From a bacterium BMS3Bbin09 (GTDB taxonomy: Bacteria; Nitrospirota; Thermodesulfovibrionia; UBA6902): a stretch of 39,289 nucleotides of DNA. The stretch is from NCBI GenBank assembly GCA_002897915.1, contig BDTS01000085.1, forward strand, positions 1 through 39,289, written 5' to 3'. Below the pieces are notes generated by a model. That model had not been told where the DNA came from and did no database searches. It saw only the letters and a program-made list of their open reading frames with translations. The position numbers were made by a program, and so were the translations under genes. Positions 2,968-19,011 of this stretch are shown piece after piece; positions within the stretch are counted from its first letter, which is position 1, and each line of letters opens with the position of its first letter.

Positions 2968-3153
2968 TTAAAGCCCAAGCTCTTTCTTGAGATTGTTATG
3001 AGATGTCCAATTTTTATTCTTTTTCTTTACATCCATAGCTGAATCATAGTCAATCTTATCCTGCTCAATTTCCTTTAACCTCTTGTATTCATTGTAGTCA
3101 AGAACTACTGCTACCGGTTTATTATCCTCTTTTACAATCTGTGTCTTAATCAT
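2968..3153 (-). CDS. Phd/YefM-type antitoxin
   Basis: MIKTQIVKEDNKPVAVVLDYNEYKRLKEIEQDK is a typical short Phd-like antitoxin; overlaps the start/stop of the RelE-like gene. Confidence 0.75.
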   Translation of the reverse strand: MIKTQIVKEDNKPVAVVLDYNEYKRLKEIEQDKIDYDSAMDVKKKNKNWTSHNNLKKELGL

Positions 3154-3409
3154 GATAAGCCTCCTGTCTGTGCTTTATCTCATAGATTAATATAACATTT
3201 TTATCGTCTTCAAATATAATTCTGTAATTCCCTGCACGTAGTCTTTTAAGGTTACCATATTTTCCCTTTAAAACTTTCACATTAACACTCCTGGAAGGTT
3301 TGACGGCATAAGTCTCTATCGACTGCAATATTATCGCCGCACTCTTCCTGTCTCCTTTATGAATTTTCTTAAATTGTTTGACAGCTTTCTCTGAGTACTT
3401 TATTTCCAT
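3146..3409 (-). CDS. RelE/ParE-family toxin
   Basis: MEIKYSEKAVKQFKKIHKG...LKGKYGNLKRLRAGNYRIIFEDDKNVILIYEIKHRQEAYHD is a classic RelE/ParE pattern. Confidence 0.9.
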   Translation of the reverse strand: MEIKYSEKAVKQFKKIHKGDRKSAAIILQSIETYAVKPSRSVNVKVLKGKYGNLKRLRAGNYRIIFEDDKNVILIYEIKHRQEAYHD

Positions 3410-3497: not shown

Positions 3498-3911
3498 TCA
3501 CTTCTTTATATTTGCCTTTTTTCTAATTATCTCAAATTCTTCTTTTGATAAGGGCAGTACAGAAACTCTCGGTTGTTTAATGAGTCCGATGTTATGTAAT
3601 TTACTATCATTTTTTATTTGTTGTAATGATATTGATTGTTCAAATGTGTTAATCGGTTCAAAATCAATCGATAACCATACCTCACTTTTTGTAGTTTTAT
3701 CATTGTACGGTAAGGTGCTCACTTTCATTATGCCGTATATTGATTTAGAAGACGGGCTATGATAGTAAAGCACTAAATCTCCTTTTTTCATTTGTGCGAT
3801 ATTATTCTTTGCCTGATGGTTGCGGATTCCATAGAGTTTGAAGACACCCTCAACCAAAACATTCTGCCATGAACGGATACGAAAAGGCGATTTGACAAAC
3901 CAGTAGTTCAT
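3498..3911 (-). CDS. EVE (PUA-like) domain protein
   Basis: MNYWFVKSPFRIRSWQNVLVEGVFKLYGIRNHQAKNNIAQMKKGDLVLYYHS: EVE signature. Start overlaps the methylase stop (3908-3911). Confidence 0.88.
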   Translation of the reverse strand: MNYWFVKSPFRIRSWQNVLVEGVFKLYGIRNHQAKNNIAQMKKGDLVLYYHSPSSKSIYGIMKVSTLPYNDKTTKSEVWLSIDFEPINTFEQSISLQQIKNDSKLHNIGLIKQPRVSVLPLSKEEFEIIRKKANIKK

Positions 3912-6900
3912 GACCCCTCAGTGTTGATTTTATTATTCTGCGCCTTGACAAGCTTTGGATACCGCCGGGCGTACCAGTTCTCGACCTCTGCAATGTCTTC
4001 ATCATTCAGGCCATATGCCTTATAAACCAGGCGGTCTATCTCAATCTGCTCGTTTGAGGCATAATCATAGCGAGGATTCATCTTTTGTTTACTTATAACT
4101 GCCGAAACTAAGTGTTCAATCGGAGACAAAGATATATAATCAAAAACAATGTTAATCGGCTTTAGCCCCTCAACTTGGGTATGGACAGTATGGTTAATAT
4201 AGTTCTTGACTTTGTATCTGACAAGTTTTGACGCTAACAGGCCTAATAAAATTAACTCGTTCCCCTTTTCTATGAAAATTGACATGCCCATGACATCATA
4301 GAGGGTGCCAGAACTTATCCTGAAAGTGGGAGCGTAATAACCGGTGTCAGAAAATGTTATGCTTTTCTCAAAATAAGTATCAATATTTCGAAAAACAGCA
4401 CAAGGTGTTGTATTATAATGAGGCTTAACTTCCTTTTGGTCCCCTTTATCTTTAAGCTTCTGCGCAATCGTATATGTCTTCATCCTCTTTACGGCCCACT
4501 CGCTCCAGTCAATGTAATAATTCGTGGGCACATAATAGTTTGGCATCCAGCCTTCAGCAGAATCGGATTCGCCGCCTTTGTCATACGGCAAAATATAACG
4601 TCCATCAAAATATCTACTGGACTTTGGGTTCTTAGAAATGCCTTTTTCAATAGTGTCTATTCGTAACTTCTCGTTTATAATTATTTTCTGTATGTCATCA
4701 TCCGTCAAAAGAAAATCCTTAAAATCATCAATGCTTCGGTAAGTACCTCGTGCTTCGGGATTCTGGAATAGGTAGGACTCATTGTCTCCTGTCTGTAAAC
4801 CGACCTTCACCTCAGCTATCTGATCTAACTTTGCCAGCTTGAGCCTCTTGACATTGAGACTGATTTTTCTCACCTGAACAGACTTGCCGCCAAGGTCAAC
4901 GTATTCTACTGAGGCACTTTTATCATTCATCAGTGCAAACAGTGTCGGTGATGCCACAAAGAACGGAAGATTGGAATTAGTCTCGATCAATTCCTGAGGG
5001 TAATAATAGATGGCATATTCAGGGCTTGAGATGCTCGCCCTTTTTTTAAATCCCTCTGTCTTGTAAAGAATCTCAAGAAACCGCTCATAGTCATCGTAAA
5101 TGCTAACATTGGTCATATCAACCATTTGGCAGTGATGACCAGCGTCTATGGTTATTTGATCTGCTGGTCTTCCCGGAGAGAATACGTTTCTTTCGCAAAT
5201 GATGATCGCCGTATTGACCGTGGCCTTGAAGGTGTCAGGATGCACTCGGATCATCTTGTGAATATAATTGCGCATCATCTGCTGACGAAGAGGGAAGTGC
5301 GTTTTGATTGTCATGAAGGTGTCAGAAACTATATAGGCAAGGATGCCCTTGTTTTTGAGAGGTGTAGTATTTTCTCCGTTACCGAGGAACCGGGCAATAA
5401 AGGCTCCATAAGGGTCTTTCTTGCCCAGCTCAAGTCTATTCTTAACCTTAACGGAAATATCCTTGCCGCCATACGGCGGATTGCCGATTACGATATCAAA
5501 GGGCTGATGTATCAGTTCAGGAAAGAACAGATCGAGATTGAAAAATGGAGCGCAGAGATTGGCATGCTGAAACCATTGCTTTAATATAACCTTATTCCGA
5601 ATGCTCTCGGACTGCGGGTCTTTAAGCTTCTTGCCGGTAGCCCGTTCAGAAAAATTAGGGAAATACGTAGCCAAAATCTCACTAATCTCTGAGGCTATCT
5701 GTTCCTTCTCATCCCTTGAAAGGTTGGGCCTGTAGTACTTCTCTTTAGCATCCCTCAGATGTGCAAAAACAGTTTCATCAAATAGGCCGATGTCCAGATC
5801 CACCAAAGAGTCAGCGCAGATGATCTTCGTTTCAATATTAGGAAGCGGGATAATATGGTAATTTTCTTCTGGCTTTTTCAGGTCAATCTGCTGTTCGATC
5901 AGAAGAGTTATGAAAAATCTTAGCTTGGTTATAAGCACGGCCAGCGGCTGATTGTCTATGCCGTATATGACATTCTTGATAATGCCGAGCTTCCGGGGAT
6001 AGTCTTCCAAGTGCTGTTCAAGAATCTTCGCAAAGTTGTTGCGCTGAAACTTGTCCTCAATCCTTGAAAGCTGCTTGTCGAGCCATAAATGGTTCTTGGG
6101 GTCAACAAGCTTAAGTATAGAGACAATCCTGTGCAGCATGCCCATCGGAAAAGCGCCCGAACCACAGGCCGGATCGAGCACCTTTATACTGTCGAGCGCA
6201 TCGACCACGATTGCATTAAAAGCCTTGTCATCGCCGTCGAGCCGGTCAAAGTAGATTAGACTATTCAAACTCTTTATGTGAGCCTTTTTACCCTTCTGTT
6301 TAAAATAATTTAAAAGGTAGAGAATCAACGATTCATTGACCATATAGTCAATAACTTTACGTGGTGTGTAGAACGAGCCGGATTCTTTTCTGGCAGTCTT
6401 TGCGACACCCTCATCAGGGTCAATTTCCGCAAGAAGGTTTTCAAAGACCAGGCCCAGTAACTCAGGATCAAGCGCAACCTCCTCTTCCAGAGGAGTGCTT
6501 TCGTGAACAGTAAATACGTATGAAGCCAATATCCTATTAAGCCCCTCAGTTTTCAAGGTCTTCTTCCCGAAGCCTACCGTCAATTGTTTTGCATAGAATA
6601 GTTCGTTCGGAATATACAGAGGCCCGTCTTCGGTGGTTTCGTTGTAATTGTCTTCTTCAAGGCGGTCGAAAAGTCCGCCGTTTAGAAAAGGAATGCTGTC
6701 AAAAAGACCAAAATTAAAATCTTCAGACAGATATTTCTTGCCGAGATATTCGGCCATTCTCTTTGATGCATTCATAGGCGAGTTCAGACAGCTTAGAAAG
6801 ATATTTTGCAATATCCCCCGATAGTAGCTGTTTTCCGTGTCAAAGTCTTTATTTGATTTTCTAACAAGTACAATCGGACTACCTGCATAGTCATAGAGTT

Positions 6901-7732
6901 CGAGCAATTTGGGATCGATCAATCCCTTTTCTTTAAGAAACCAGCAAAAGATCATCCGGCATATCAGCCTCACAGTGAAGTTTTTAACGTTATCCTTGTC
7001 GTCTTTATAATATTCTGGCCTGATTGGAAGCTTTATGACATTTGTTGCATAGTAATACCAAGCTGAGATTTTTCGATAAAAAGACTCATTCAACACCTGA
7101 ACATCGAATACTTCCTGCCACTGCTTATAAAGGGCATTAAAGTCCGTTACATCAGGCTCAACTTTTAAATCATACAAAATCTTTAAATGCCCGGTATGTG
7201 GTGAATCAGTATTGATGTCCTTAAGAAGCGAAATCTTGCCTATCTTTTCCCCTTCTCTCCATGCCTGTTTATATTTAGTTCTTTCAGAAGCTGCGAAAGA
7301 AAGGAGGTCTCCATATTGTAAAAGTAGAACAACAGGTATATATTCGCTTACACGGTTAAATGCCCTTGTCAGCTCGGCTATCCTGCCTCTTGCAGGAGAA
7401 TAAGAATCATCCAGTTTGACAGCAAAAACCATCAAGCCGTTATAATCTGCATTGATCTTACCCGTAGCTTCCTGGAGAGAGATTTTGTCATCGCTTAACA
7501 AAGGGGCATTCCCGTCAAAAACAGAATCATCGACAAGACCTAAAAAATATGTTTCGGTAACGGCCTCAAAAATATCTTTGTCTTTATATTGATCCTTTAA
7601 CAGCTCTTTTGCCTCTAATGAAGAAGCAGTATTGCTATTCAAACGTACGCCTAACTGGTTGAAAAACTCAGTGCCCGCCTCGAAGAGGTTGTTTTTGAAA
7701 ATGGTCAGGTTTATCCGAGTTGTCTGTTTCAT
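3908..7732 (-). CDS. Large Eco57I-like N6-adenine DNA methylase, restriction-modification-like
   Basis: 1274 aa; motif I DPACGSGAFPMGMLHRI, motif IV NPPYGG, SGSFYTPRKVIDYMV. Confidence 0.9.
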   Translation of the reverse strand: MKQTTRINLTIFKNNLFEAGTEFFNQLGVRLNSNTASSLEAKELLKDQYKDKDIFEAVTETYFLGLVDDSVFDGNAPLLSDDKISLQEATGKINADYNGLMVFAVKLDDSYSPARGRIAELTRAFNRVSEYIPVVLLLQYGDLLSFAASERTKYKQAWREGEKIGKISLLKDINTDSPHTGHLKILYDLKVEPDVTDFNALYKQWQEVFDVQVLNESFYRKISAWYYYATNVIKLPIRPEYYKDDKDNVKNFTVRLICRMIFCWFLKEKGLIDPKLLELYDYAGSPIVLVRKSNKDFDTENSYYRGILQNIFLSCLNSPMNASKRMAEYLGKKYLSEDFNFGLFDSIPFLNGGLFDRLEEDNYNETTEDGPLYIPNELFYAKQLTVGFGKKTLKTEGLNRILASYVFTVHESTPLEEEVALDPELLGLVFENLLAEIDPDEGVAKTARKESGSFYTPRKVIDYMVNESLILYLLNYFKQKGKKAHIKSLNSLIYFDRLDGDDKAFNAIVVDALDSIKVLDPACGSGAFPMGMLHRIVSILKLVDPKNHLWLDKQLSRIEDKFQRNNFAKILEQHLEDYPRKLGIIKNVIYGIDNQPLAVLITKLRFFITLLIEQQIDLKKPEENYHIIPLPNIETKIICADSLVDLDIGLFDETVFAHLRDAKEKYYRPNLSRDEKEQIASEISEILATYFPNFSERATGKKLKDPQSESIRNKVILKQWFQHANLCAPFFNLDLFFPELIHQPFDIVIGNPPYGGKDISVKVKNRLELGKKDPYGAFIARFLGNGENTTPLKNKGILAYIVSDTFMTIKTHFPLRQQMMRNYIHKMIRVHPDTFKATVNTAIIICERNVFSPGRPADQITIDAGHHCQMVDMTNVSIYDDYERFLEILYKTEGFKKRASISSPEYAIYYYPQELIETNSNLPFFVASPTLFALMNDKSASVEYVDLGGKSVQVRKISLNVKRLKLAKLDQIAEVKVGLQTGDNESYLFQNPEARGTYRSIDDFKDFLLTDDDIQKIIINEKLRIDTIEKGISKNPKSSRYFDGRYILPYDKGGESDSAEGWMPNYYVPTNYYIDWSEWAVKRMKTYTIAQKLKDKGDQKEVKPHYNTTPCAVFRNIDTYFEKSITFSDTGYYAPTFRISSGTLYDVMGMSIFIEKGNELILLGLLASKLVRYKVKNYINHTVHTQVEGLKPINIVFDYISLSPIEHLVSAVISKQKMNPRYDYASNEQIEIDRLVYKAYGLNDEDIAEVENWYARRYPKLVKAQNNKINTEGS

Positions 7733-8028
7733 ACAATTAAAACATTAACAAATATTTGAATTATAATGATTTATTATTTATTTGCAGAGCCTCCTGCAAA
7801 TTAGTTGTCCGGTTTGTCCAGTTTATGTCCTGTTTGTAAGCTTCCTGAATTCATGGCCCCTTTGCGATGGGTTTGACGGATTTCGCAATCAATTGTTACC
7901 TCCTGCTTGTCCAGTTTCCCGATGAGCCATTTATGAGCCGTTTAGTGTCCCATATGTCTCATAAATGTCTCATTAAGTGAAAATCATCTTTCAGTAAAGC
8001 AGAACGTCTCATATGTCTCAAATATGTC

Positions 8029-9465
8029 TCATTTCTTGCCAGCCAGAATGTAGTAGCTTCCGCGTTTTTCTCCCATACGTTCAAGAATACCCTTCTCGAC
8101 AAGATCATCCAAGTCACGAGCAGCAGTTTTGCGGATGACTCCTGTAAGTTTCTGGTACTCAGAGTTGGTAATCCGTCGCGTTCCTTTGATATGGGCCACT
8201 GCCTTCATCTGCCGCTCGTTCAGGTTGTATCCCGCCAGCAGTTCCGGTGTCAGCCAATCGCGCCATAGGGTTATGACAAAGGAGCCGCTGCGCTGCTCGA
8301 ATTCGGGTTCAGGCAGTCCCGCTTCACGGCAGAGCTCGATCATGCGTTGGGTGCCTGAGCCGGCCTTTTCAATATAGCGGGTCAGATACAAAGACTCAGC
8401 AAGAAGCGGGTTGTTCGGAACTGAAGGGTGATCAGTACGCAGATCGTCGAGCGAAAGTGTCCCGGGAAGTCTTCCTGGATTCCATACTTCGAGACGGTCC
8501 GTAAAGAGACGGACCTCAACGGACGCATTGTTGTTGTAATCCCTGTGCGCAATGGCATTGACAACTGCTTCGCCTATGGCGTCAGGGGGCAGTTCATAGG
8601 CAGCCGGAGCAATGTTGCTATCAGCGCGTACTCCTACGGCCCGGCTAATTTTGGAGAGCACGAAGTCACGGGCCTGATCTGCCTGCTCAAAAAGATCACC
8701 GGAATAAATCTGCTGGGATGCAAAGGGGCGGCGATAGCCAGTGCCGTGGCAATGCACGCACTTTGTCTCAGCCGAGCGGTGAAACCTTTGCGGTGTCGTG
8801 CCAAACAGAAGAATTGCAGCATTGGTCGGTTTTCCATGGGCAAGCAGATTCAGATGTATGAGAAGCGCCTTTGTCGCGGAATTGCGCTTGAGCGGAAAAG
8901 CGCGTTCCCTTCGGGCAGTCTCTAAAAACCACTCAACACGCTTACGTGAGAGATTTTTCAATGTCACACCCTGACAAACAGCGGTATCAAAGGGCGGCAC
9001 GCGGAGCGCGCCCATGCCGTCAAGGTGGTCAATAAGACTTGCATATACTTCTGAGGTCAGGGCATTAAAGTCTTTGATGCGGCGGCGGACAAGTTCGCCG
9101 CTGGCCCTACTGATAAGTTTCTTCATTTTAGGATCACGTTTCTTATCGTCAGAGCCCCATACATAGATTAGCCGGGTTTTCCGGTGTCTCGTGGCCTGGT
9201 TGTATTCGCGTTCAGTAGGTGATAACCCGTTTGGGTCCTCATTGCCATATTCATAACCAAAGATTCCGAGATATATATCACAGCGCTCCACTTCCTGGAG
9301 ATAAACCTGATCAGAGCGCCGGTCCCTTGCGGGAAGCTCTTCAAAAAGAAAAACCTCGGAGATAAACCGGTGCAACACCGCATCACCAAGGAGAAAGGCC
9401 TTTAAATCCAGACGAATTTGCTTAAATTCACCCTGAACACTGCTGACAAAGATTTTATATTTCAC
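8029..9465 (-). CDS. DUF4062 N-terminal domain plus COG2865-like ATP-binding (HATPase) and wHTH protein
   Basis: MKYKIFVSSVQGEFKQIR...CDIYLGIFGYEYG (DUF4062 pattern); PPDAIGEAVVNAIAHRDYNNNASVEVRLFTDRLEVWNPGRLP...NNPLLAESLYLTRYIEKAGSGTQRM (HATPase_c_4/COG2865 pattern); C-terminal winged-helix region. Confidence 0.85.
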   Translation of the reverse strand: MKYKIFVSSVQGEFKQIRLDLKAFLLGDAVLHRFISEVFLFEELPARDRRSDQVYLQEVERCDIYLGIFGYEYGNEDPNGLSPTEREYNQATRHRKTRLIYVWGSDDKKRDPKMKKLISRASGELVRRRIKDFNALTSEVYASLIDHLDGMGALRVPPFDTAVCQGVTLKNLSRKRVEWFLETARRERAFPLKRNSATKALLIHLNLLAHGKPTNAAILLFGTTPQRFHRSAETKCVHCHGTGYRRPFASQQIYSGDLFEQADQARDFVLSKISRAVGVRADSNIAPAAYELPPDAIGEAVVNAIAHRDYNNNASVEVRLFTDRLEVWNPGRLPGTLSLDDLRTDHPSVPNNPLLAESLYLTRYIEKAGSGTQRMIELCREAGLPEPEFEQRSGSFVITLWRDWLTPELLAGYNLNERQMKAVAHIKGTRRITNSEYQKLTGVIRKTAARDLDDLVEKGILERMGEKRGSYYILAGKK

Positions 9466-9498
9466 AGTTGATCCTTAAAGTATTTTTTCAGGATAAGA

Positions 9499-12400
9499 TT
9501 ACTCTGACACCACAAACCAGGTGATTAAATCAAAATTGTCCAGTTTAAATTTATCTTCCAGCCTCTTTTCATTCGAAGACTTTTTCCTGGGGACACCATC
9601 TGTAAAAATACCCTGAATTTCATCAATGGCCTTTTTGGGCGCCTGCCCATCAATCCATGCCTTAATCTTGTCGCTTAACCACTGCAACGCTTCCTTATCT
9701 CCATTTTCAACATCATCAGGAACAAACCTGATCTTGTTTTTATGCTTTCTTAATATACATAGTATTTCCTGATTGTTATTGTAAGTAGAAAAACCTTTGT
9801 TATTGGAATAGAGCAAATGATACTCATTATATGTATGTGTGTCAGCGTCATCGGGCTTTTTGGGATAACCTAATAATGCAATTATGCCTTCCGGCAATTC
9901 AGTATATTTTTTGTCAGGTTCTGCTTTGAAGCCAGTAAATATGCCATTAGGCATTCCTTCAAAAATTTCTTTATTCTTCTGGAAAATATCGAATAATTCC
10001 TGTCTAAACTGCTCAAGGGACAGGTTATCCAGGCTAAGACTTTCATCGCTGGTCTCAACATCTTCCCATGTAAACTGCATTTGATTGAGCATTTTTTCAG
10101 TCTGTCTGGTGACTATTGGGTTGTTTTCAACAATCTTTTCAATTTCCGGCGTCATCTTCTCATCAATCTCAGCGCCAACCACAGACATGGCAGCCATCCG
10201 GTTTTCAACTCTTGCTTTGAGCCTGAGGTAGTCTTCATAATTTTTACCCGGCCAAAAATTTATCCCTTTAATGGTTTGATTGGGAGAGCCAAGACGGTCT
10301 ATACGTCCCATTCGCTGAATAATTCTGACTGGATTCCAATGTATATCGTAATTGATCACACAATCACAATCTTGTAGATTTTGGCCTTCACTTAAACAGT
10401 CCGTAGCTATCAAAATGTCCAAGGGCTCTTCTAATTTTTTCAAAGTATCAGGATCGTGCTTTTTTATGATATTCTTCCAGTCTTCAAAACTCTCCGGCTC
10501 TAATATGCCTTTTTCATCATATAAATAACTCCAATCTTTTTCTTTATACAATTTAGTGTATGGAGCAAAACGCTCTAAAATGCCCTCGAACTTTTTCCCA
10601 CTGTAGCCGTAATCTGTTTCGGATAATGAGCCTGACACGCAAGCAATATTGCAAAATCCTTCATTTATCAATTGGTTATATAAATACTGTGCAGTATCAG
10701 TAAAGACAGTAAACACTACCACTTTCTGGTTGTCTCGCTCTTTCCTTTTTTTCTTAATATGTTCAATTAATTTTTCTAATTTAATATCTTTTATTTTCTT
10801 TTCTTTCAGATTTTCTTCAAATATAACAAGATTTGACTTGAGGTTCTCCAGCCTTGCAATATCATCTTCCAGATGCCTCTTAAACATATCAATGTACCTG
10901 ATATCTGAAAGTTTAATAGGGTTCTTTTTCCCAAGGGTAAATTCTTCAAGCTGTTCTGTTTCATTGTCGGAGCCGGCAAACTCAACAGATGTTTCTTCAA
11001 GATCATCTTCGAAATTATTTTGCTCTGATATTTCATCTTCAAGAACAGTGTCTTCTTTTGCATCTATAAAGTCATTAACTTTCTGCAAAGCGTTAGTGTG
11101 ATGGTCATAAATATTGTTTACTGTATTTCTAAATGAATACCAGCTTGATTCAAGACGCTTCATCAAGAGAATGTACATCATCTTGACCAGAAAACCCTCA
11201 CGCTGGACCTCATCTTTCAATACACTTTCAGGTGTTATTTTTTCTGTATATTTATGTGGCATATATGCAATGAGGTTAATCGACTCAATTGCGTTTAACA
11301 ACTCCTCAAAAGACTTTAAGTTGCCAATGTTTTCAGGATTAATATATTCATTCTCAGGATCTTCTTTTTTAGGAAATGACATGCCGCCAAACTCACTCTC
11401 TATCAACTTCCTTGTTCTTGCAACAATCAATGCATCCGTAAGAGAAAAGAACTTTTGTGGCAGCATCTGAATAAAGTCGCTGATTTTTCTGTTCTCTTTT
11501 TCCTGCCATGATTTGAAATCTTTTTGAGCTGTCCGGAATATGCTTTCTAAACTACCGATTTCGAGGTTTGTCTCTTTGAACCCATTGTCATGCCCTTTTA
11601 CGATCAATTTGAATTGGTTTCTTACATCAATCAGTTTATTGTTTATTGGTGTAGCAGACAGTTGTAATACCTTTACTTCCTTATTTTTCCGTAAGATATT
11701 TTCAACCAGAAATTTGTAGCGGGAAGATTTATCATTTCGCAGATTGTGACTTTCATCAATTACAACTAACAGTTTTGGATTGCCCTGAAAGAATGTCTTT
11801 ATCTTATAGCCATCCTGATATGACTCTAATCTGTCATCCTGTAAATCAGTATGATAACGAATCGTATACTTCAATCTGTCTCTTTCAAATTTTGAAAGAT
11901 GTCCTTCAAGATATTGTCTCCAGTTAGCATCCAGTTTCTTCGGGCAGAACAAGATTATCCTGTACCCTTTTATTTCAAAATACTTCATAACGGCCAGGGC
12001 AGTCCATGTTTTGCCTAATCCCACTGCATCAGCCAGAATAGCACCGTCATTTTTTTGAAGCATTTTAATAAGACTGATTACACCCGTTTTCTGGAAGGGA
12101 TAGAGGATTTTATAAATACCAGTATCCTCTAAATGACTTATCTCTTTATTAAATTCAGGATCAAGCGACAGTGATAATAAGTCCTCTTTAAAGAGCTCAT
12201 ACAGCACCTTGTAATAAAGTTGGAAAGGAGTGTATTTGCTATACAGGTCTTGAATGAGAGTGATGATATGTTCTTTAACACTTACTTTAGACTTGTCAGG
12301 TAGTTCGATATTCCCTAAAGTATCTTTGCTTTTCCACAGATCACTGAACCATTGAGTCAACTCCTTGAAATCGTTATCATTACCAGTACCTGCTGAATTT

Positions 12401-12858
12401 AATTCAATATTACCAGACTCTCTTATTCCTAACCCTGCATCGGTTAAATTGGAACTGCCTATAACGTGGAAATTCTTACGGGGGTCAGGATCATGGTACA
12501 TATAGGTCTTAGCATGGCAAAAACTTCGTTGAATAGTTTTGACCTGGACTTTTTCCTGCCGTAGAAAATCAACGGCCTTTTTTGCTGACTGATTAAGATT
12601 TAATACTTGGGTAACACCTAGAGTGTCGCTTAGAAGATTTATAATCTTATCATGTTGATTGTCCTCATTAAGTAAATTACCGAGTACCAGGCGAAATCTT
12701 TCAGTATCATTCATCTCGTCCATTACCCTGGCAAGTGCATTGACAGAAAAATATCCGGTAACTATATCAACTTTTCCCTGCTCGATATAGTTACGTAAGA
12801 AGCCATATACAGTCGAGTACTCGTTGTCTTCAGTTTTTGTTTTGTTATCCAACAGCAT
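9499..12858 (-). CDS. PLD-like domain fused to SNF2-family helicase
   Basis: N-terminal HAKTYMYHDPDPRKNFHVIGSSNLTDAGLG (PLD-type HxK...GSSN); ADAVGLGKTWTAL (Walker A), VVIDESHNLRN, LSATPINN, IIQRMGRIDRLGSPNQ (motif VI). Confidence 0.92.
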   Translation of the reverse strand: MLLDNKTKTEDNEYSTVYGFLRNYIEQGKVDIVTGYFSVNALARVMDEMNDTERFRLVLGNLLNEDNQHDKIINLLSDTLGVTQVLNLNQSAKKAVDFLRQEKVQVKTIQRSFCHAKTYMYHDPDPRKNFHVIGSSNLTDAGLGIRESGNIELNSAGTGNDNDFKELTQWFSDLWKSKDTLGNIELPDKSKVSVKEHIITLIQDLYSKYTPFQLYYKVLYELFKEDLLSLSLDPEFNKEISHLEDTGIYKILYPFQKTGVISLIKMLQKNDGAILADAVGLGKTWTALAVMKYFEIKGYRIILFCPKKLDANWRQYLEGHLSKFERDRLKYTIRYHTDLQDDRLESYQDGYKIKTFFQGNPKLLVVIDESHNLRNDKSSRYKFLVENILRKNKEVKVLQLSATPINNKLIDVRNQFKLIVKGHDNGFKETNLEIGSLESIFRTAQKDFKSWQEKENRKISDFIQMLPQKFFSLTDALIVARTRKLIESEFGGMSFPKKEDPENEYINPENIGNLKSFEELLNAIESINLIAYMPHKYTEKITPESVLKDEVQREGFLVKMMYILLMKRLESSWYSFRNTVNNIYDHHTNALQKVNDFIDAKEDTVLEDEISEQNNFEDDLEETSVEFAGSDNETEQLEEFTLGKKNPIKLSDIRYIDMFKRHLEDDIARLENLKSNLVIFEENLKEKKIKDIKLEKLIEHIKKKRKERDNQKVVVFTVFTDTAQYLYNQLINEGFCNIACVSGSLSETDYGYSGKKFEGILERFAPYTKLYKEKDWSYLYDEKGILEPESFEDWKNIIKKHDPDTLKKLEEPLDILIATDCLSEGQNLQDCDCVINYDIHWNPVRIIQRMGRIDRLGSPNQTIKGINFWPGKNYEDYLRLKARVENRMAAMSVVGAEIDEKMTPEIEKIVENNPIVTRQTEKMLNQMQFTWEDVETSDESLSLDNLSLEQFRQELFDIFQKNKEIFEGMPNGIFTGFKAEPDKKYTELPEGIIALLGYPKKPDDADTHTYNEYHLLYSNNKGFSTYNNNQEILCILRKHKNKIRFVPDDVENGDKEALQWLSDKIKAWIDGQAPKKAIDEIQGIFTDGVPRKKSSNEKRLEDKFKLDNFDLITWFVVSE

Positions 12859-13058: not shown

Positions 13059-13424
13059 TTAAACCCTCAATTCAACCGCAACCCCCACCCTCTCATTCGG
13101 GCTTCCTTCCTCCCTGATCCCGCTTATCCGGGCCTTAACATCCACACCCTTATCCATCAGCTGGGCAATAACCATATTATCGGAACGGGGAAGGTAGCCA
13201 ATCTTCTCGTTTTCGTGGTATATCTCGACGGCGTCGTAGTCGAAGGGGTTTCCGGGTTCTCTCTTGAGGTCAAGGGACCTGCCGGGTTCGAGTTTTTTCC
13301 ATATCTCTTCACCACTGTAATACCGGAAACCGGCTACAGAGGAATCAAGCAGTAATATGTTTTTTTTGTGGGCGGGTCTTGTTGCTGCCGGAACGATCAA
13401 TCCGAGGACTCTTCTTCTTTTCAT
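13059..13424 (-). CDS. HIRAN-domain protein
   Basis: MKRRRVLGLIVPAATRPAHKKNILLLDSSVAGFRYYSGEEIWKKLEPGRSLDLKREPGNPFDYDAVEIYHENEKIGYLPRSDNMVIAQLMDKG. The start at 13424 has a GGAGGT RBS; the longer ORF to 13616 translates repeat DNA. Confidence 0.82.
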   Translation of the reverse strand: MKRRRVLGLIVPAATRPAHKKNILLLDSSVAGFRYYSGEEIWKKLEPGRSLDLKREPGNPFDYDAVEIYHENEKIGYLPRSDNMVIAQLMDKGVDVKARISGIREEGSPNERVGVAVELRV

Positions 13425-13506
13425 TGTTACCTCCAGGTTTAAATTTACCTGTATAGTAAACCATGCACTATGCCATATGATGTCATAGTGGATCGAGTGC
13501 AAAAGA

Positions 13507-13530
13507 GCAATAGTGCAATAGTGCAATAGT
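13507..13530. repeat. Tandem 8-bp repeat GCAATAGT x3
   Basis: 13507-13514, 13515-13522 and 13523-13530 are identical. Confidence 0.9.
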
Positions 13531-13536
13531 TCAAAA

Positions 13537-13634
13537 GTAGGGGCAGGTCCCTGCGCCTGCCCTTGTAGGGGCGAGGTTGCCTCGCCCTGTGGATATGTCT
13601 GCCCACGTAGGGGCACGGCATGCCGTGCCCCTAC
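13537..13634. repeat. Array of three GTAGGGGC-type palindromes
   Basis: GTAGGGGCAGGTCCCTGCGCCTGCCCTTGTA; GTAGGGGCGAGGTTGCCTCGCCC; GTAGGGGCACGGCATGCCGTGCCCCTAC (perfect 28-bp palindrome, 13607-13634). Confidence 0.9.
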
Positions 13635-13637
13635 ATT

Positions 13638-14609
13638 TCAATCATATATCTTCCCCATCTTCTTTATCTCATTCTTCACTTCATCGGCAAGCGCCTTCGG
13701 CGAAACCACCTTCACGTCAGGACCGTGGCTCAATATCCTCTTTGTCAGTTCATTGAAGTCAGCGGCAGGGAAGCTGAGTTCGAGTGCCCCGTCCTTTTTG
13801 AGAACGAGTTTCTGTTCAGGGTGCCAGATCTGTTCCTCTATCCAGTCCGCGACTGAAGGAGAGAACCTCAGGCAGACCTTACGGGTCTTCCCTCCCTGCA
13901 TTATCCCGAAGTGTTTACGGGTATATTCCTTTACAGGCGGCAGGCCGTCCGGAAGACGGATGTTCTCATCTGAAAAAGCTATGGACCTGACCCTCGACAG
14001 GGCAAAGTCCCTCATATCATTTCGCAATGAACAGAAGGCGATCAGGTGCCAGCTTCCCATGTACTGCACCAGATGAAGGGGCAGGATGTTCCTCTCTGTT
14101 TCTTTTTTTGAATGAGGTGAATAATATGAGATGGAGATAGGCGTTTCCTGAAAGAGCGCGTTAACTATGGAGTGAAAGTCTTCTTCATTGACGCGTGAGT
14201 ACTCAACATTCTTTACCGATATCTTTTCGGACATCTCCCGGATATCGGGTCTCGATCCATGATCACTGACATTGAAGACCTTCCCGATAAAATCATAGAG
14301 TTCATCCTTTATCCGCGTATCAGGGATGGTAGAGGCGAGCCGGACAGCAAGGGCAAAAGAGATGACGCTCTCTTCACTGTACCATTGGGACGGAAGCTCG
14401 TATGAATCATCGGTATAATAATATCCCTTTCTGGTGTGATCATACTCAAGCGGGGCCTTCAGCCTGTCCCTTATAAAATCGAGCTCACGCTGGGCAGTGC
14501 GGGGGGATATCTCAAATCTCTCGGCAAGGTGGCGCGCGTTCGGATATTTAGAGGCCTTTACCCTGTCATGAAACCAGAGGAACCTCTCATATTTAAGCCT
14601 CTCTCCCAT
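13638..14609 (-). CDS. HTH plus WYL-domain transcriptional regulator
   Basis: N-terminal HTH ([42 protein letters not shown]), WYL core ([53 protein letters not shown]) and C-terminal WCX-like region. Confidence 0.9.
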
Positions 14610-16542: not shown

Positions 16543-18102
16543 TTAATGCTTAAAATGCCTCATCTCGGTAAAGATCATCGCAATGTTGTGTTCATCCGCT
16601 GCAGCGATAGTATCAGCGTCCTTTATCGAACCTCCGGGCTGGATGATCGCGGTAGCACCGGCATTGGCAACAGTATCTATGCCGTCCCTGGCAGGAAAGA
16701 ACGCATCTGACGCGACAGCTGAACCTTTCAGTGATACGTCGTAGTTCGCTGCCTTCATCGCCGCAAGCCGAGCAGAATCAACCCTGCTCGTCTGCCCGCA
16801 GCCGATCCCAAGTGTTCTGTTTGACGATGAATAAATGATCGCGTTTGACTTCATGTGCTTGCAAATCTTCCACGCAAAGGCCATGGCCGCGTATTCATCA
16901 TCTGTGGGTTTCCGCTTGGTCACGACCTTCAGGGTCTTCAGGTCCTCTATCATGCCCCTGTCCTTTTCCTGTACAAGGAGTCCGCCCTGGATCTTCCTCA
17001 TATCATAACCGGTAACATCTTTTGTGATATCAAGCTCGAGCAGCCTTATGTTGGGCTTGGCGCTCAGGAGTTTAAGTGCCGCAGTATCGAACGAGGGGGC
17101 AATGATTATCTCGCAAAAGAGGCTCAATATCTCTTTTGCAGTGGCCTCGTCAACCGGCCTGTTTATGGATATGACACCGCCAAAGGCAGAGACAGGATCT
17201 GTCGCGAACGCCTTCTTATATGCCTCGCTGATTGACTCATCTACAGCTACGCCGCACGGGTTGTTATGTTTAACTATGACCGCCGCAGGTTCAGTGAACT
17301 CCTTTGCAAGGTCTATAACAGCGCTTGAATCAAGGTAGTTATTGAAGGACATATCCTTGCCCTGTAGTATCTTCGCATCTACAAGTGAGAGCCCGGCATT
17401 CAGCGGTTCCCTGTATACGGCTGCCTTCATGTGCGGATTCTCGCCGTACCTAAGGCTGTTTATCCTGCTGAAGCTCAGATTAATGCTCGGCTGGAACGGG
17501 TTGTTCGGCTCGGCCTGCTTGTTGAGCCAGTTCGAGATCAATGTATCGTATCTGGCAGTATAGGCAAAGACCTTTCTGGCAAGATAGTATTTTGTCTCAT
17601 CACGAGCCTCGCCGTTATTCGTGTTCAGTTCATCAATGACCTTCGAATAATCGGCAGGGTCAACAATGACAATTACATCCTTGAAGTTCTTTGAAGCGGC
17701 CCGCAGCATTGTCGGGCCCCCTATATCGATGTTCTCTATCGCCTCCTCGAACTTGACGTCCGGCTTTGATACAGTCTGTTCAAAGGGATAAAGATTCACA
17801 ACAACTATATCAATAGGTTTTATCCCATGCTTTTCTGTCTCTTCCCTGTCTTTAGGATTGTCTCTCCTGTAGAGCAGTCCGCCGTGGACCTTTGGATGGA
17901 GTGTCTTGAGCCTGCCGTCCATCATCTCCGGGAAACCGGTATGTTCGGATACATCCTTTACATTCAGGCCCGCGTCCTTTAACGCCTTTGCGGTCCCGCC
18001 GGTAGAGAGTATCTCGACGCCGAGCTTATTGAGCCCCTGCGCAAATTCAATTATTCCGGATTTATCTGAAACGCTTATTAGTGCCCTTTGAACCTTTGCC
18101 AT
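16543..18102 (-). CDS. purH: Bifunctional AICAR transformylase/IMP cyclohydrolase
   Basis: MAKVQRALISVSDKSGIIEFAQGLNKLGVEILSTGGTAKAL...LRYGENPHMKAAVY...KHNNPCGVAV. Confidence 0.97.
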   Translation of the reverse strand: MAKVQRALISVSDKSGIIEFAQGLNKLGVEILSTGGTAKALKDAGLNVKDVSEHTGFPEMMDGRLKTLHPKVHGGLLYRRDNPKDREETEKHGIKPIDIVVVNLYPFEQTVSKPDVKFEEAIENIDIGGPTMLRAASKNFKDVIVIVDPADYSKVIDELNTNNGEARDETKYYLARKVFAYTARYDTLISNWLNKQAEPNNPFQPSINLSFSRINSLRYGENPHMKAAVYREPLNAGLSLVDAKILQGKDMSFNNYLDSSAVIDLAKEFTEPAAVIVKHNNPCGVAVDESISEAYKKAFATDPVSAFGGVISINRPVDEATAKEILSLFCEIIIAPSFDTAALKLLSAKPNIRLLELDITKDVTGYDMRKIQGGLLVQEKDRGMIEDLKTLKVVTKRKPTDDEYAAMAFAWKICKHMKSNAIIYSSSNRTLGIGCGQTSRVDSARLAAMKAANYDVSLKGSAVASDAFFPARDGIDTVANAGATAIIQPGGSIKDADTIAAADEHNIAMIFTEMRHFKH

Positions 18103-18276
18103 AATGCCCTCCTGAGATATAAATATGAAAGACTGGATAATTATTTATTATTGTTAATTACTACAGGTCCACCCCTAAAAAACAGGGTCGGTAAGACATT
18201 TTAGACTATTTCCTGAAAAAATTCATTGAATTATGATTTTCTCTTGAAATACAGGAGGTTAAGCGGTTATAGATCT

Positions 18277-19011
18277 TCAGCTCATATAGCCCTTTTCCAT
18301 CAGACTGAAGTATTTACCGTCAGAAATGATCAGGTGGTCAAGGACCTTTATCCCGACGACATTTCCGGTCTCGACGAGTCTTTTTGTTATGTTAATATCA
18401 TCTCTGCTCGGGCTCGGGTCCCCGCTCGGATGATTGTGAATAAATAGCACGGATGCGGCGGCCTCCTTGATAGCATCCCGAAAGACTTCCCTCGGGTGCA
18501 CTGGAGATGAAGTAAGTGTCCCCTCTGACACGACGTTCTCCTTGAATACCCTGTTCTTTGTATCAAGCAATGCGCAGAGGAACCTCTCTTTCTTCAGTCC
18601 GTAAAAAAGAGGTCTATAATATTCAAAGACAGCCTTGCTGTTTTTGAAAAATGGATTCTTTGCAGAGGTTTCATTCCCGGAGCTCAAAAGCCTCCTGCCC
18701 AGTTCAAAGGCAGCCTTGATCTGTGCCGTCTTCGCGGGGCCGATCCCCTTTATATCCGAGAATTCGGCGGACGCGGCAGACTCTATCTCGTGCAGAGTCC
18801 CGAAGTGGATCAGAAGTTCCCTTGCGAGCTTGATCGCGCTCTTGTCCCTGCTGCCGGTCCTCAGTATGATCGCAAGCAAATGAGCGTTGCTCATGCCAGA
18901 CGCGCCGAATTTGATGAGCCTTTCCCTCGGCCTTTCATCCTCCGGCCATTTATTTATACCCTTGTCCAAGAGGTAAGAATAGCAGGAAAAACAAAAACGC
19001 TCACCTGTCAT
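18277..19011 (-). CDS. radC: RadC family protein (JAMM/MPN+); true start probably downstream of 19011
   Basis: RPRERLIKFGASGMSNAHLLAIILRTGSRDKSAIKLARELL...HNHPSGDPSPSRDD. The annotated start lies inside a terminator hairpin. Confidence 0.93.
   Translation of the reverse strand: MTGERFCFSCYSYLLDKGINKWPEDERPRERLIKFGASGMSNAHLLAIILRTGSRDKSAIKLARELLIHFGTLHEIESAASAEFSDIKGIGPAKTAQIKAAFELGRRLLSSGNETSAKNPFFKNSKAVFEYYRPLFYGLKKERFLCALLDTKNRVFKENVVSEGTLTSSPVHPREVFRDAIKEAAASVLFIHNHPSGDPSPSRDDINITKRLVETGNVVGIKVLDHLIISDGKYFSLMEKGYMS

Follow-up and report, generated by a model that had tools for sequence, protein, structure and literature searches.

Our analyses of a 39,289-nucleotide contig from bacterium BMS3Bbin09 (BDTS01000085.1; "the window" denotes this whole stretch) revealed a minus-strand operon of four genes, spanning positions 3498 to 12858, which probably encodes an ATP-dependent, restriction-modification (RM)-like defence system composed of a two-gene core, a PLD-SNF2 helicase and an Eco57I/PglX-type DNA methylase, and two accessory modules, a DUF4062-HATPase-winged helix-turn-helix (wHTH) protein and an EVE-domain protein. 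The gene content, the co-inheritance of the core genes, their catalytic motifs, and the exchange of operon halves between loci are directly observed, and on this basis we propose a model for how the system would act. The methylase would use its C-terminal region to locate its DNA site and would methylate the host copy, with N6-adenine methylation predicted from its NPPY motif. The PLD-SNF2 protein would dock onto the methylase and translocate on DNA, and its PLD domain would cut incoming DNA that lacks the mark. The DUF4062 protein would serve as a backup, its HATPase/wHTH part sensing infection or failure of the core and its TIR-like domain destroying NAD+, such that the infection is aborted. 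The EVE protein, as part of the methylase cassette, would read the mark laid down by the methylase or help the methylase to act on its site.

The helicase (9499-12858, minus strand; 1119 amino acids) joins a PLD domain with a single HKD motif to an SNF2 motor (Pfam PLDc_2, E 1.6e-7; SNF2-rel_dom, 1.1e-14; Helicase_C, 2.2e-17), and the methylase (3908-7732, minus strand; 1274 amino acids) matches the Pfam families Eco57I (3.9e-16) and N6_Mtase (2.3e-8). A helicase-alignment scan of species-representative genomes, together with searches of 300-400 genomes of the phylum and of plasmids, provided about 100 loci (numbered with the prefix L) for comparison. Wherever a helicase relative of at least 40% identity lies in enough sequence, the same Eco57I-type methylase adjoins it. 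We found 74 complete helicase-methylase pairs in many phyla, 71 of them in the order helicase then methylase, and at 40 of the 74 loci no gene lies between the two, the median gap being a few nucleotides. This association is far from chance. Remoter helicases, at about 30% identity, are accompanied either by a methylase of this kind or by DUF4391 together with Type III Mod/Res genes; the latter arrangement (PLD-SNF2 helicase, DUF4391, Type III Mod, Res) is common on plasmids and chromosomes (L009-L013, L041-L044), and a literature search on DUF4391 turned up no name for it.

Both core proteins carry the signatures of active enzymes. Residues H115, K117, N137, and E152, the Walker-A lysine K283, and the DExH residues D368, E369, and H371 of the helicase are kept in 72-74 of the 74 homologues, and the methylase retains NPPY (751-754) and D520 of motif I in all 74; the near-invariance of the PLD H/K/N/E residues, the SNF2 motifs, and NPPY fits catalytically competent proteins. 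The PADLOC profile C3a139, "HKD+Snf2," matches the helicase over most of its length (E 1.1e-79). Judged by these motifs, the PLD-SNF2 protein is the predicted motor and nuclease, that is, the restriction component, and the methylase is predicted to be both the self-marking enzyme and the target-recognition subunit. In 74 pairs, modification and restriction genes thus lie side by side, are inherited together, and have intact catalytic motifs, as is characteristic of RM-like systems. The initial annotation of this region had proposed an RM-like system in which the PLD domain could serve as nuclease and the methylase would mark self, and core pairing and invariant motifs lend support to that prediction. 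It had also treated the four genes as a single system, with conservation of the four-family neighbourhood as the check. Here only a part stands: the conserved unit is the helicase with the methylase, a pair that recurs at the 74 loci, and the DUF4062 protein and EVE are separate modules, the former in a variable slot and the latter following the methylase lineage. The exact four-gene set occurs only in the window among the loci reached. For neither the helicase nor the DUF4062 protein did we find relatives in viral contigs; in phage records, helicase matches are partial or distant only and the methylase C-terminus is unmatched, and on plasmids that C-terminus is matched weakly, nearly always by BREX PglX.

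How do the modules combine? The closest helicase relative, in L070/L085, is 88% identical to that of the window, and its DUF4062 gene 73%, but the methylase there differs and no EVE accompanies it. That methylase is 53% identical over residues 1-500, with the DNA match confined to approximately the first 210 residues, and its catalytic and C-terminal part is different. The converse is seen in L031 and L034, with methylases 58-70% identical next to helicases of only 32% identity. Methylase and EVE therefore behave as a cassette that is swapped between cores, and the operon consists of two exchangeable halves, helicase with predicted NADase gene and methylase with EVE. The N-terminal part of the methylase remains paired with the helicase and may serve as a docking surface. 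The nearest four-gene analogue, L031, encodes a Schlafen-HATPase-wHTH protein, helicase, methylase, and EVE.

The DUF4062 protein (8029-9465, minus strand; 478 amino acids; Pfam DUF4062, 1.8e-20; HATPase_c_4, 1.6e-24) travels with the helicase lineage, in a slot between the core genes whose content varies. Depending on the locus, this slot is empty or holds a Schlafen-HATPase-wHTH protein, a DUF4062-HATPase-wHTH protein, a YhcG (DUF1016) nuclease, KilA-N, or PIN. The window shares its DUF4062-HATPase-wHTH occupant with L070/L085 (73% identity), L086 (84%), and L087 (100% over 244 amino acids); a Schlafen_AlbA_2-HATPase_c_4-wHTH protein fills the slot in L034, L035, L036, L102, and others, and lies upstream of the helicase in L031. 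Apparent DUF4062 matches in L031, L034, L035, L036, and L039 were discarded, as they cover only the HATPase-wHTH part, and those scanned against Pfam have Schlafen_AlbA_2 instead. We read the slot gene as an interchangeable backup, or abortive, effector. DUF4062 proteins have been described as TIR-like NADases that cause abortive infection (PMC13174449), and Schlafen-HATPase-wHTH proteins beside BREX have been interpreted as backup suicidal effectors (PMC12839542). Among 45 aligned DUF4062 domains E87 is present in all and the neighbouring E85 in 43, so E87 is likely the catalytic glutamate. By analogy with the described family, the protein is predicted to be a TIR-like NADase effector with its own sensor or regulator part; of the two roles initially suggested for it, sensor or effector, the second is thereby retained and sharpened to a predicted NADase (PMC13174449).

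The same protein type recurs elsewhere in the Nitrospirota, in Type III RM operons (L241, L244, L237), beside HsdR (L242), and near SNF2-NOV_C (L235/L236). Because it sits within Type I as well as Type III RM operons, we regard it as a mobile, general RM-associated module that is not private to the PLD-SNF2/methylase core. Lone DUF4062-HATPase proteins that share 50-54% identity with that of the window also adjoin parB on Legionella plasmids (L165, L166); in L. hackeliae the annotation splits the DUF4062-HATPase gene into two overlapping parts.

Might the DUF4062 protein instead regulate the operon? It ends in a C-terminal winged HTH, and just downstream of its gene, in the intergenic stretch that precedes the methylase (7733-8028), direct repeats of TGAGACAT lie at 7954, 7965, 8013, and 8024, with a spacing of about 11 bp, or one helical turn. 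The relatives L085 and L086 carry other repeat units (TGGCTCA and TGACTCA) at the equivalent place, and the repeats are possibly an operator for the wHTH or else a fast-changing spacer. One could accordingly picture a transcriptional regulator resembling a C protein that binds the repeats and times expression of methylase and EVE, with a TIR-like domain that senses a nucleotide and does not kill. We regard this as unlikely. The catalytic-type glutamate is invariant, Schlafen-type and nuclease genes take the place of the DUF4062 gene at other loci, the core is kept at loci devoid of a DUF4062 protein, and NADase activity is known for the family (PMC13174449); the occurrence of the same protein type in RM operons of Types I and III also fits an effector better.

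The EVE gene (3498-3911, minus strand; 137 amino acids; Pfam EVE, E 2.7e-31) overlaps the methylase gene by 4 nt (3908-3911), and open reading frames (ORFs) and Pfam matches confirm both this overlap and the four minus-strand genes as initially described. We surveyed all loci with a hidden Markov model made from four system EVEs, a search that divergent EVEs could escape. Besides the window, five loci (L031, L098, L114, L134, and L155) have EVE next to a methylase, and at these loci the C-terminal 415 residues of the methylase resemble those of the window. Among 59 evaluable pairs (L034, at a contig end, was left out), EVE accompanies six of the seven methylases with a window-type C-terminus and none of the 52 with other types (6/1/0/52; Fisher p=1.6e-7). 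A helicase tree was built to allow for relatedness, with methylases compared by identities. On this tree we count 8 changes of methylase C-terminal type and 6 of EVE, and EVE sits on six separate helicase branches; in seven independent pairs, EVE moves with the methylase in six and against it in none (sign test p=0.031). The EVE gene thus tracks the methylase lineage and not the helicase. A single clade (100/99) unites the system EVEs and separates them from the sampled housekeeping EVEs of Nitrospirota, and no further EVE was found in the host genome or in the listed genomes of the host family. In L098, from Cyclobacterium, an NgoFVII-type PLD restriction nuclease is encoded between methylase and EVE (17141-18412).

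EVE is probably a reader of modified bases or a partner that assists its methylase lineage. Across at least five phyla, a single clade of these standalone EVE proteins is genetically linked to one lineage of methylases, which makes the site methylated by that enzyme a concrete candidate for the EVE ligand. Tentatively, and with considerable doubt, we go a step further and speculate that EVE is a dedicated reader within a self-recognition cassette that plugs into varied PLD-SNF2 cores, and that an interchangeable suicide module, NADase or Schlafen, would fire when this reading of self fails.

EVE domains are predicted to confer specificity on modification-dependent restriction, and in COG1743-DUF499-SNF2/nuclease-EVE systems a comparable function has been proposed for EVE (PMC7641849). 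It is conceivable that the operon works in a Type IV-like manner, with EVE recognizing modified phage bases and recruiting the PLD-SNF2 nuclease and with the methylase laying down a different, tolerated mark. However, EVE tracks the methylase lineage and not that of the helicase-nuclease, and 53 of the 59 evaluable helicase-nucleases of the PLD-SNF2 family have no EVE nearby; we therefore consider such a mechanism improbable.

Which protein would cut the DNA? The methylase's best PADLOC profiles are those of Type IIG enzymes and also PglX, and its C-terminal part resembles PglX (NF033452). Type IIG enzymes would place a nuclease in the N-terminal region, which we inspected over 450 residues. 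An alignment of 49 N-terminal segments contains no conserved acidic pair, ExK, or D...ExK nuclease triad; the near-invariant residues of positions 1-200 include Arg, Asn, and His, and R115, R123, R151, H179, and H182 are conserved in the domain. An AlphaFold model of residues 1-450 is confident (pLDDT 80), yet Foldseek returned no significant match to it in PDB or BFVD, scattered matches to YTH being not significant. The lack of a nuclease motif or fold match leaves the PLD domain of the helicase as the best nuclease candidate.

The PglX-like C-terminus allows for a BREX/Pgl-like scheme in which self is marked by the methylase and phage DNA is blocked in replication or entry rather than cut, with the PLD-SNF2 protein as a motor. 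Cleavage-free action has been proposed for Pbe systems, which also employ an HKD-SF2 helicase (discussed in PMC10853773), but the PLD catalytic residues of the operon's helicase are invariant and the genome lacks both PglZ and DUF499, which makes this scheme very unlikely. The most improbable of the alternatives, a stand-alone Type IIG methylase with its own N-terminal nuclease that merely shares an island with a separate PLD-SNF2 defence gene, draws on the Type IIG profiles and on the related helicases that accompany DUF4391 and Type III Mod/Res genes, and is countered by the direct helicase-methylase adjacency across phyla and by the N-terminal domain just described.

Several points weigh against the RM-like model as we propose it. 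The EVE association rests on seven loci, mostly chosen through the helicase, and in L071 a methylase with a similar C-terminus has no adjacent EVE, with an operon EVE located elsewhere in the same genome (G026). An AlphaFold model of the DUF4062 protein, built from three sequences, reached a pLDDT of 41 and was not used, such that its active site is assigned by sequence alone. Finally, our searches found no named defence system or tested relative matching the whole operon.

The host is a deep-branching member of the Nitrospirota (Thermodesulfovibrionia-type), whose draft genome comprises 115 contigs totalling 1.85 Mb. The closest named matches to the window are bacterium BMS3Bbin08 (L087; 99.97% DNA identity over 3,577 bases) and Thermodesulfovibrionia DeMMO3_26 (L085). 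GC content differs strongly within the cluster, at 51.5% in the DUF4062 gene versus 36.5% in the helicase gene and 33.8% in EVE. A recent insertion of the DUF4062 gene, an idea suggested by its higher GC content, was rejected because L085 and L086 show the same GC contrast and position. The first 13 kb of the window (1-13 kb) are AT-rich throughout and resemble a defence or mobile island. Downstream of EVE lie two likely toxin-antitoxin pairs, both on the minus strand: in one, a RelE-like ORF (3146-3409) is accompanied by a Phd-like ORF (2968-3153); in the other, an AbrB-like ORF (1658-1897) is accompanied by a PIN protein (1248-1682), the "-like" names being assigned by sequence reading. At the other end, 13059-14609 (minus strand) encodes a HIRAN protein and a WYL regulator adjoining purE; WYL and HIRAN also occur together in L254 and L255, where the operon is not present, and the island border therefore probably lies near 13.0 kb.

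How does the operon relate to known systems? The proteins scanned in the window include no drmA/drmB, brxC/pglZ, or hsdR/hsdS product, and the whole genome, a metagenome-assembled one whose 92% completeness bears on this result, has no PglZ, DUF499, or MZB (DUF1998-type); in control searches, MZB was found in 8 of 14 genomes and the DUF499 control was positive. The initial observation that hallmarks of DISARM, BREX, and Type I RM are missing is thereby upheld. DISARM class 1 (DrmD SNF2, DrmMI methylase, DrmC PLD) shares with the operon an SNF2 helicase, an adenine methylase, and a PLD domain, but the operon has no DrmA or DrmB, its PLD domain is fused to the SNF2 protein, and the genome lacks MZB. 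The helicase does match the NCBIfam DrmD model (E 7e-41), yet with 140 bits against a cut-off of 610. The BREX core is likewise missing, with no PglZ in the genome and no BrxC among the window proteins scanned, and no gene of the cluster bears HsdS or HSDR_N of Type I RM. Compared with Type IIG enzymes, the methylase and a C-terminal, specificity-like part are present, and the N-terminal part has neither nuclease motif nor fold match. The PADLOC search for a named system, suggested initially, returned only single-protein "HKD+Snf2" and IIG/PglX profiles and no multi-gene system; C3a139 describes a single protein, with no methylase, EVE, or DUF4062. Full-text searches of the open-access literature turned up no account of the Eco57I-type methylase and PLD-SNF2 protein pair as a named system.

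Type-2 BREX-related (BR) or Hma-type DUF499 systems, among them the COG1743-DUF499-SNF2/nuclease-EVE loci (PMC12839542, PMC7641849), have in common with the operon an SNF2 helicase with an N-terminal HKD nuclease, a methylase, sometimes a standalone EVE, and a Schlafen-HATPase-wHTH backup effector. The operon differs in its Eco57I/PglX-like, non-COG1743 methylase, its two-gene core, and the absence of DUF499 from window and genome; an identity with Hma was rejected on this last ground. CxC-ABC/PbeABCD systems (PMC10853773) share an HKD nuclease fused to an SF2 helicase and, in some cases, methylases, but the operon has no CxC ABC ATPase or DndE; an SMC-like ATPase, assigned no further than that class, lies near 16 of the 74 core relatives. 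The DUF4062 protein finds its counterpart in Swarozyc, the DUF4062 antiphage NADase defined by abortive infection through portal-activated NAD+ hydrolysis (PMC13174449), with which it shares the TIR-like DUF4062 domain, a C-terminal auxiliary part including an HTH or winged fold, and the invariant catalytic-type glutamate. Unlike Swarozyc, its auxiliary part consists of HATPase_c_4 and wHTH, and its gene is embedded in an RM-like operon. A single HATPase-wHTH chassis whose head is swapped between a Schlafen-type domain and a TIR-like, predicted NADase would connect this new family of NADases with restriction systems and hints at a way in which failure of RM could be coupled to abortive infection.

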